DNA from: Gillisia sp.
GTDB lineage: Bacteria > Bacteroidota > Bacteroidia > Flavobacteriales > Flavobacteriaceae
Direction of reading: 5' to 3'
Assembly (NCBI GenBank): GCA_024635655.1
Contig: JAGXIL010000085.1
Location: forward strand, 1-64,000
Length of the DNA stretch: 64,000 bases
A program made the translations under genes and the position numbers. The notes beneath the pieces were generated by a model. The model made no database searches and was not told the origin of the DNA. It saw only the letters and a list, made by a program, of their open reading frames with translations. Shown here one piece after another: positions 15,690 to 28,475 of the stretch (position 1 is its first letter; each line of letters opens with the position of its first letter).

Positions 15690-16640
15690 ATGAAGTTTAC
15701 GACTCCGGTACCAATAATTAGCAGAGAACCTAAGATAGATCATCATTCCAGGATCTTTCTAACAGGTTCATGTTTTGTGGAAAATATAGGAGAAAAACTG
15801 GATTACTATAAACTTCATAATTTTCGGAATCCTTTTGGGATATTATATCATCCCGCTGCAATTAAAAATCTTCTGGAAAAGGTAAATAGAAATTACCGTT
15901 ACACCTCTGAAGATGTTTTCTTTCACAATGAACGCTGGCATTGCTTTGACGTACATTCAGCCTTGAGTGCTTCTGATAAAGAAACTTTGCTTCAACGTCT
16001 CAATGAAAACCTTCAGAATACCCTGAACTATTTAAAGGAAGCGAGCCACGTGATCATTACTCCGGGCACCTCCTGGGTCTACAGGAATGTAGCCTCTCAG
16101 GAGCGGGTGGCGAATTGTCATAAAGTCCCTCAAAAAAATTTCTCCAGGGAATTAACCTCACCTTCTGAAGTTCAATTTTTACTGAGCAGCGTGGTATCCG
16201 AAATTCAAAGTATTAATCCCGGGACCAAAATTATATTCACTGTTTCCCCTGTGAGACATATTAAAGATGGCATTATTGAGAACCAGTTAAGTAAAGCACA
16301 TTTGCTTACTGCCGTTCATGCCGTTATTAAAGATTTTCCTGAAAGTGCCTTTTATTTCCCGGCTTATGAGATCGTAATGGATGAGTTACGGGATTACCGT
16401 TTCTTTGCTGAAGATATGATACATCCAAATGCAATTGCCGTGAAATATATCTGGGAGAAATTTTCAGAAGCCTGGTTCTCACCGGAAGCAATTTTGGCCA
16501 TGAATACAATAGAAGAAATAAGGAAAGCCCTTTCTCACCGTCCATTTGATGAAGGTTCTGCAGCTCATCAAAAATTCCTGATATCCACACAGAAAAAAAT
16601 TGCTGAGTTTAATCAGCAATACCCTGAGGTAACCTTCTAA
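15690..16640 (+). CDS. GSCFA domain-containing protein
   Basis: ORF 316 aa; 'IFLTGSCFVENIGEKL' motif and 'FTVSPVRHIKDGIIENQLSKAHL'. Confidence 0.92.
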   Translation: MKFTTPVPIISREPKIDHHSRIFLTGSCFVENIGEKLDYYKLHNFRNPFGILYHPAAIKNLLEKVNRNYRYTSEDVFFHNERWHCFDVHSALSASDKETLLQRLNENLQNTLNYLKEASHVIITPGTSWVYRNVASQERVANCHKVPQKNFSRELTSPSEVQFLLSSVVSEIQSINPGTKIIFTVSPVRHIKDGIIENQLSKAHLLTAVHAVIKDFPESAFYFPAYEIVMDELRDYRFFAEDMIHPNAIAVKYIWEKFSEAWFSPEAILAMNTIEEIRKALSHRPFDEGSAAHQKFLISTQKKIAEFNQQYPEVTF

Positions 16641-16731
16641 GGGTTTAAGAGTAAATTAACTACTTTCTGACAAAAGCTGCTTTTATTTCTGTTTTTCCGT
16701 TAATCATAAATCCTGGTATTATATAAATTTG

Positions 16732-16856
16732 TTGTCATTATGAGGAAGTTTAAATCCTAAAAATTTTTAATCCTCATGAGAATTGATTTCATTTTGTTGG
16801 GGTTCAAATTGAAATTGTATATGGGCGGTTGGGGGACCGCCCATTTTGCAATTTAA
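16732..16856 (+). ncRNA. Candidate structured small RNA, element 1
   Basis: Hairpins: 16740-16746/16771-16777 (ATGAGGA/TCCTCAT); ~16785-16794/16806-16816 with loop TGTTGGGGTTC; 16821-16829/16836-16844 (ATGGGCGGT/ACCGCCCAT). TAAATTTG at 16724-16731 resembles the Bacteroidota -7 box. Confidence 0.55.
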
Positions 16857-17044
16857 GGGTTAAGGGTCTGGAAAAAATTATTTTGTTTTACCTTTAAATC
16901 AGATTTTTTTAAATTTTTTTTTCAGCTTTAAGTGTAATTTTTACGGTTTGCTTTTCTTAGGAAATACACGGGTTTGGAATACCCACTCCAGGTTCAAAAA
17001 AGATTTAACTCTTTGTAAACATCTGATTAACATAAATTTATATA

Positions 17045-17216
17045 TTGTTTTAATTTGCGTGAAAGATAAATTATTGTATTTTTATATAAGCAATGAAACT
17101 ATAACAAGAGTGATTTATCATTCTTCTGTAGTCTTAAAGCTAAGTTTCTAAAATTTGTTGGGGTAGATTTTAGAATTAAAAGCAAATGGACGGGTGGGGC
17201 CGTCCATTTGCATTTT
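17045..17216 (+). ncRNA. Candidate structured small RNA, element 2, same architecture as element 1
   Basis: Hairpins: 17146-17154/17167-17175 (TTCTAAAAT/ATTTTAGAA, loop TTGTTGGGGTAG); 17182-17193/17200-17211 (GCAAATGGACGG/CCGTCCATTTGC) then ATTTTT. TTTG (17012-17015) and TAAATTTA (17033-17040) form a plausible promoter. Confidence 0.58.
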
Positions 17217-17291
17217 TAATACTTTCCTTGCTCTAAAACTCCAATCTCTTCGCTCTGCAAATGATTTGTATCTTTACCTAAAAATTCGGGC

Positions 17292-17906
17292 ATGAGGAAA
17301 ATCATTTTTGTTGTACTTCTATTATTGGTTGCTTTCTTTGCCTGGAAATATTTTGAAGCCAGGGACAGCCAACGGGATCAATTGGTTGAAAGTACGGATC
17401 TGATCCAGAAGCAAATCAAAAATGTTGGAAAATTAGTGGTTACAGAAGGTAATTTTGCACAGGTGTACTCTTACAATGATTCTAAAAAGTTTTACCTGGA
17501 TGTCCTTTCTGCCCGAAAAAAGGCCCTTATTATAGTCAATGCAGATGTAACCGTAGCCTACGATCTCAGCAAGTTGCAAACCGAAGTAGATCCTGAAACA
17601 AAAACGGTTACCATCACTTATATTCCGGATGAAGAAATTGCCATTAATCCTAATATTCAATATTATGATGTTACCCAGGATTATTTAAACCAGTTTGAGG
17701 CCAAAGATTATAACCGTATCCAGGAGCGGATCAAGAAATCATTAATGGAAAAGATCGAGAAATCTACCATAAAATCCAATGCGAAGAACAGGTTGGTAAG
17801 TGAACTGCAAAAGATATATATCCTCACAAATTCTATGGGCTGGACCCTTGAATACAATGGCAACACCATAAGCAGCTCTGAGGCGATGGAGTCTATAAGG
17901 CTTTAA
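17292..17906 (+). CDS. DUF4230 domain-containing protein
   Basis: ORF 204 aa; 'LQIKNVGKLVVTEGNFAQVYSYNDSK...ALIIVNADVTVAYDLSKL'-type sequence. Confidence 0.85.
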   Translation: MRKIIFVVLLLLVAFFAWKYFEARDSQRDQLVESTDLIQKQIKNVGKLVVTEGNFAQVYSYNDSKKFYLDVLSARKKALIIVNADVTVAYDLSKLQTEVDPETKTVTITYIPDEEIAINPNIQYYDVTQDYLNQFEAKDYNRIQERIKKSLMEKIEKSTIKSNAKNRLVSELQKIYILTNSMGWTLEYNGNTISSSEAMESIRL

Positions 17907-28257: not shown

Positions 28258-28345
28258 GAATACGGGAAATATATTTGCGGCTAAATTAATTAATCTAACT
28301 TAAAAATGTCTTGTGAAATGGAACAAAGATAGCTATATTTGCACC

Positions 28346-28439
28346 GGCAAGTCCCACACAACCAGCTCCTGCTGAATCCCCCAGGGCCGGAAGGCAGCAA
28401 GGGTAAGTGGTCGTAGCGGTGTGATGTGGGTCGCTTGCC
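28346..28439 (+). ncRNA. ffs: Signal recognition particle RNA, small bacterial type
   Basis: Tip motif CCCCCAGGGCCGGAAGGCAGCAAGGGTAAG; terminal stem GGCAAG (28346-28351)/CTTGCC (28434-28439). Confidence 0.96.
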
Positions 28440-28475
28440 ATTTTTTGTATCTGATATTTAAATTTAATTGCATCT

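Follow-up and report, generated by a model that had tools for sequence, protein, structure and literature searches.

In the window, a 64,000-nucleotide stretch of a Gillisia sp. genome, the gap between a GSCFA-like gene (15690-16640) and a DUF4230 gene (17292-17906) holds two tandem elements that very probably represent a functional RNA family encoded on the + strand. We refer to the RNA family that comprises elements 1 and 2 as family A. Family A appears to be a small regulatory RNA that had not been described before in marine flavobacteria. Moreover, we lean toward the hypothesis that elements 1 and 2 are members of a paralogous family of base-pairing sRNAs whose likeliest partner is a second RNA, B, with A acting as a decoy for B or the reverse.

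The first-pass annotation described two tandem two-hairpin elements in this gap, and both are present where it placed them, lie on the + strand, and fold as described. In element 1, a promoter -7 box read from the sequence (TAAATTTG, 16724-16731, + strand), with a predicted transcript start at about 16736, is followed by hairpin 1 with the loop UUGGGGUU (16785-16816, + strand), which is seen in the fold and falls within a covariance model match of 48 bits (16783-16855). Hairpin 2 of element 1 (ATGGGCGGT/ACCGCCCAT, 16821-16845, + strand), found both in the fold and in the hairpin census, has a G-rich loop and is terminator-like with a weak U-tract. In element 2, the promoter consists of TTTG (17054-17057), a 19-nt spacer, and TATTTTTA (17077-17084), spanning 17054-17084 on the + strand with a predicted start at about 17089. 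Hairpin 1 of element 2 (TTCTAAAATTTG-UUGGGG-TAGATTTTAGAA, 17146-17175, + strand) is supported by the fold, DNA identity, the covariance model, and covariation, and hairpin 2 (GCAAATGGACGG-GUGGGG-CCGTCCATTTGC, 17182-17211, + strand, or 17182-17218 with the U-rich tail) by a terminator scan and covariation; together with that tail, hairpin 2 is predicted to be an intrinsic terminator with a conserved loop. The predicted + strand RNAs thus extend over about 16736-16856 (element 1) and about 17089-17220 (element 2). Direct reading of the sequence 3' of the element 2 terminator also gives the DUF4230 gene (ATG at 17292), whose protein is 84% identical to its G. limnaea counterpart, a separate candidate -7 box, TATCTTTA (17269-17276, + strand), and a box in this position argues against element 2 being a simple leader.

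The folding energy is -31.1 kcal/mol for element 2 (z -6.4) and -27.7 kcal/mol for the core of element 1 (z -4.3 to -4.4), and in either case none of 200 shuffles folded as well. The minimum-energy fold of element 2 presents the hexaloop UUGGGG in hairpin 1 and the hexaloop GUGGGG in hairpin 2. When pairs of adjacent hairpins with stems of at least 8 pairs and GGGG loops were counted, 3.6 Mb of Markov-shuffled sequence contained none, and 1.2 Mb of real congener sequence contained three, one of which is element 2 and two of which are weak.

It had been argued from the two copies in the window that the loop is conserved while the stems covary, and this now holds across 37 distinct A sequences. 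In their alignment, 18 of 23 base pairs are changed on both sides, including 9 of the 12 pairs of hairpin 2. Paired cells amount to 95.0% (81.6% in shuffled alignments) and cells with a double change to 92 (19.2 when shuffled), and the covariation score of 0.366 (shuffled, 0.124) was reached in 0 of 500 shuffles; when the 3' partner was slid by one column as a control, pairing fell to 54%. Because the 37-sequence alignment was fitted to the structure, a MAFFT-based count provides the more cautious figure, with 93.3% paired versus 85.0% and 13 pairs changed on both sides. The alignment contains 53 G-U or U-G cells, about half of which come from one conserved U-G column, versus four A-C or C-A cells, and this excess indicates that the + strand is the RNA. 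Both A hairpins carry a loop of the UUGGGG/GUGGGG type, the conserved loops being UUGGGG, GUGGGG, and UGGGGG. Copies in g244 and g189 have wholly different stems (e.g., AATTGTTCGTGGGGAACAATT and GAGGATGGTTGGGGCCATCCTC), yet their loops are still UGGGG.

The family is conserved beyond this strain: a covariance model was built, Flavobacteriaceae genomes were searched, and members were found in congeners and in other genera. Element 2 is present in most congeners at 88-96% DNA identity over short matched segments, mostly upstream of DUF4230, an arrangement shared by nearly all Gillisia genomes sampled, and its named loci belong to Gillisia, Salegentibacter, Gramella, and Zunongwangia. At least four genomes (that of the window, G003, G010, and G013) carry a copy of the element 1 type directly 5' of element 2, of which element 1 is a tandem paralogue. 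Other A paralogues occupy different places in G003, G007, and G010, and G001 has a second A copy just 3' of DUF4230. The first covariance model (R1) gave matches in eight genera among 400 genomes of the family; on inspection six of these are true (g1, g47, g61, g117, g189, and g244) and two are chance terminators. With the updated A model, 16 of 16 genomes of the genus were matched, with up to six matches per genome, some of them weak. Many weak matches (L134, L135, L138, L169-L173, L175-L182, L211, L166, and others) were rejected as ordinary terminators whose two hairpins do not both carry a G-rich loop, and we likewise place outside family A the weak matches L168 and L239, in which only hairpin 1 has such a loop, and L174, in which only hairpin 2 does. 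In the further A-type copies at G003:C1:579972-580047 (minus strand), L162, and L154 (G011), hairpin 2 is changed to AGCTAATGAACAGGTGGGGCTGTTCATTAGCT, which is compensatory relative to element 2. In addition, genera g2 and g244 share another conserved two-hairpin element, TTACTTCCCTTCAGAATGAAGTAA followed by the terminator GGATGGGCGTGCACCCGTCC or similar (L214, L216, L231, L248, and L251, in G258, G412, G016, and G267, and also L176 in G418), which is a candidate sRNA.

Promoters of the flavobacterial type had been proposed for both elements. The -7 box proposed for element 1 is confirmed; the phylogenetically conserved promoter of element 2, however, is the one at 17054-17084 and not the proposed TTTG-N17-TAAATTTA. 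Of 22 element-2-type loci, 20 have a TA-N-W-TTTA box 56-84 nt upstream of the matched core, and nine of the 22 also have TTG 18-20 nt upstream of this box, an arrangement seen in 2.3% of shuffles. Among the element-1-type and paralogue loci that were checked, five have TAnnTTTG-type boxes 46-59 nt 5' of the matched core. TAnnTTTG is a flavobacterial promoter (PMC9723704), to which the TA-N-W-TTTA box of element 2 corresponds. Family A combines hallmarks of an independent trans-acting sRNA, namely a promoter box, an intrinsic terminator, and paralogues at unrelated loci. Its lack of a conserved ORF was judged solely from the sequence that precedes the core, which is poorly conserved.

Neither element has a match at gathering level in Rfam, in agreement with the earlier remark that no Rfam family was recognized. 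A cmscan of the locus against Rfam 15 at E up to 10 yielded noise only, the best hit being a microRNA family at 21.9 bits (cut-off 66), and BTnc231 (19.7 of 80.4 bits) and rteR (18.9 of 72) were rejected as far under their cut-offs. The Flavo-1 RNA motif is a widespread structured element of Flavobacteriaceae, and it gave no cmscan match to either element even at E 10. Elsewhere in the window, 28338-28444 (+ strand) encodes a small signal recognition particle RNA (Rfam RF04183, 102.7 bits). In the open-access papers searched we found nothing on A or B. Family A resembles the RbpB-associated FopS/GibS sRNA family of Bacteroides, whose members are multicopy, paralogous, intergenic Bacteroidota sRNAs ending in an intrinsic terminator hairpin (PMC11697453). 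However, FopS has a conserved R1 seed in a single-stranded 5' region ahead of one terminator hairpin and is deposited in Rfam (PMC11697453), whereas A has two hairpins, conserved sequence in G-rich loops, and no Rfam match, and so does not qualify as FopS. Similarly, A is like Rfp18 of Flavobacterium psychrophilum in being a conserved structured flavobacterial sRNA outside annotation, but Rfp18 is described as pairing through a third stem-loop and as having a deletion phenotype on metalloprotease mRNAs (PMC9723704), and A, in a comparison by description only, shows two core hairpins rather than three.

RNA B was first seen as a weak match of the updated A model in the window's own genome (G000:C85:196264-196335, minus strand). 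This match was rejected as a copy of A and is instead a conserved unannotated RNA, which extends over G000:C85:196264-196366 (minus strand) and is also found at L163, L183, and L202. B is conserved in 14 of 16 congeners and has a promoter (TTTGG-N19-TATCTTTGA), an invariant CTTTTTTTGCCCCAA, a hairpin (TTTTCATTT-CCCCAA-GATGAAAA), and a terminator (GGATGAA-CCTAC-TTCATCC), with CCCCAA occurring both in an unpaired stretch and within a loop. Compared with Rfam, B has no match. The B model (R3) matched six genera, of which five are true; the locus is syntenic across these five, and every B checked is flanked on one side by a divergent ECF-sigma gene with a small downstream gene and on the other by a convergent ABC-transporter gene. 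Between the divergent sigma gene and B, most congeners (L183-L196) have a conserved direct repeat upstream of B, TGTAGGAA-N6-TGTAGGAA with slightly variable spacing, which is a candidate regulator or sigma site. At the orthologous place in further genomes (G122/G325, G185, G045, G023, G020, G024, G155, and G047) there are hairpins with CCCCAA loops on unrelated stems, often with CCTAC just 5' of them, and the presence of such hairpins at the B locus in further genera indicates that B is older and wider than A. At the syntenic locus in g2, g189, and g244 no B was found, though A-like RNAs or fragments exist in these genera, and in G332 B is degenerate whereas A is kept. G003 also has, at L348:3965-3989 (minus strand coordinates), a hairpin of 9 bp whose loop is exactly CCCCAA (CAAATTGGT-CCCCAA-ATCGATTTG).

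The UUGGGG of A and the CCCCAA of B are exact complements, and in both RNAs the sites are exposed and conserved. In the window's genome, element 2 can form 14 contiguous base pairs with B (UUUGUUGGGGUAGA with UUUGCCCCAACAAA, G-U included) at -11.1 kcal/mol and element 1 can form 13 at -11.8 kcal/mol, these energies being given after the opening cost in our own simple helix model on ViennaRNA accessibilities; 0 of 150 shuffles of B pair as well with either element. In G272, B has five Cs and the best A-like match five Gs, which results in a perfect 10-bp duplex (rank 1 of 23), although this A-like match is weak (E 0.0068), lies just past a stop codon, and has a hairpin 2 without a G-rich loop. 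The A-like RNAs of g189 and g244, genera in which no B was found at the locus, contain AAGTAGGTT, the complement of the AACCTACTT of B. Separately, A-like RNAs of g2, g189, and g244 (L174 (G267), L133, L136, L140, and L244) share a conserved stretch 5' of hairpin 1, ATAAGTAGGT, which is complementary to the ACCTACTT that B contains in other genera. B came up by chance in a structural search that was not aimed at complementarity. Beyond the core, pairing is not systematically stronger within a genome than between genomes, and the ranks of own pairs are mixed. Given these mixed ranks and the retention of A in G332 where B has decayed, we regard A-B pairing as a supported hypothesis rather than a demonstrated interaction, and the complementarity may be a coincidence, since G-rich and C-rich loops are common.

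Based on these findings, we propose that each A element would have its own flavobacterial promoter, which drives + strand transcription as far as the second hairpin, where the transcript would end, and that each RNA would present two short G-rich loops of the UUGGGG type on stems that are largely free in sequence. The loops, singled out at the outset as a candidate binding site, keep that candidate status and would serve as base-pairing sites; that A acts by pairing through them is, in our judgment, probable. The likeliest partner would be B, made at the ECF-sigma/ABC-transporter locus and exposing CCCCAA on a hairpin loop as well as in single-stranded sequence, so that A, in one to several copies, may bind B and serve as its decoy, or vice versa. 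That B is the main partner we put forward tentatively, at somewhat less than an even chance. It is conceivable, if rather less likely, that the two form a conserved reciprocal sRNA pair of Flavobacteriaceae, in which the C-rich B is divergent from the ECF sigma gene and the younger, multicopy, G-rich A mimics the targets of B with its twin hexaloops and titrates B by loop pairing, as an RNA-level counterweight to the sigma response.

CsrB/RsmZ decoys titrate CsrA by means of multiple hairpins with GGA in the loop, and A, like these decoys and bacterial sponge RNAs, repeats identical exposed loops and could act by titration. The same loop occurs twice per RNA on changing stems and paralogues multiply the sites, as would be expected if UUGGGG loops were sites for an RNA-binding protein that A titrates. 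We nevertheless consider a protein decoy unlikely given that the conserved loops of A are of the UUGGGG type and lack the GGA of CsrA sites, that there is no credible Rfam match to the CsrB/Rsm families, and that the hairpin 1 stem hardly varies between the element 2 copies of several genera, beyond what pure loop display needs; A also differs from CsrB/RsmZ in being encoded by multicopy intergenic genes. Less likely still is that A is a direct mRNA repressor whose loops pair with C-rich sequence just 5' of start codons, mainly those of envelope protein genes. The initial 1.2 Mb of the congener G003 contains 24 genes in which ACCCC or CCTACTT lies no more than 20 nt from the start, and 15 of these have signal peptides as predicted by a crude rule, versus 31% overall (p 0.001), but the held-out 0.8 Mb gave 0 of 6 genes (pooled p 0.02, uncorrected), and we claim no targets. 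Nor was either TTGGGG or CCCCAA enriched around start codons over Markov expectation (for CCCCAA, 19 versus 16.8). Finally, although hairpin 2 is a good intrinsic terminator and the position of element 2 upstream of DUF4230 is fixed, it is very improbable that the elements are only a conserved terminator or other cis element of the GSCFA/DUF4230 neighborhood with no trans role, because further loci, and other genera at sites unconnected with DUF4230, have paralogues built with the same two loops, the loops and not the stems alone are conserved, hairpin 1 is not needed for termination, and a conserved promoter box lies upstream.

Few sRNAs have been described from marine Flavobacteriaceae, and most sRNA paradigms come from other phyla. 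The present analysis adds two well-supported unannotated RNA families, with models that are good enough for genome annotation. A and B offer a concrete case in which to ask whether sRNAs regulate each other by loop pairing in Bacteroidota, and whether the conserved terminator loop is itself a functional site can be tested as well.
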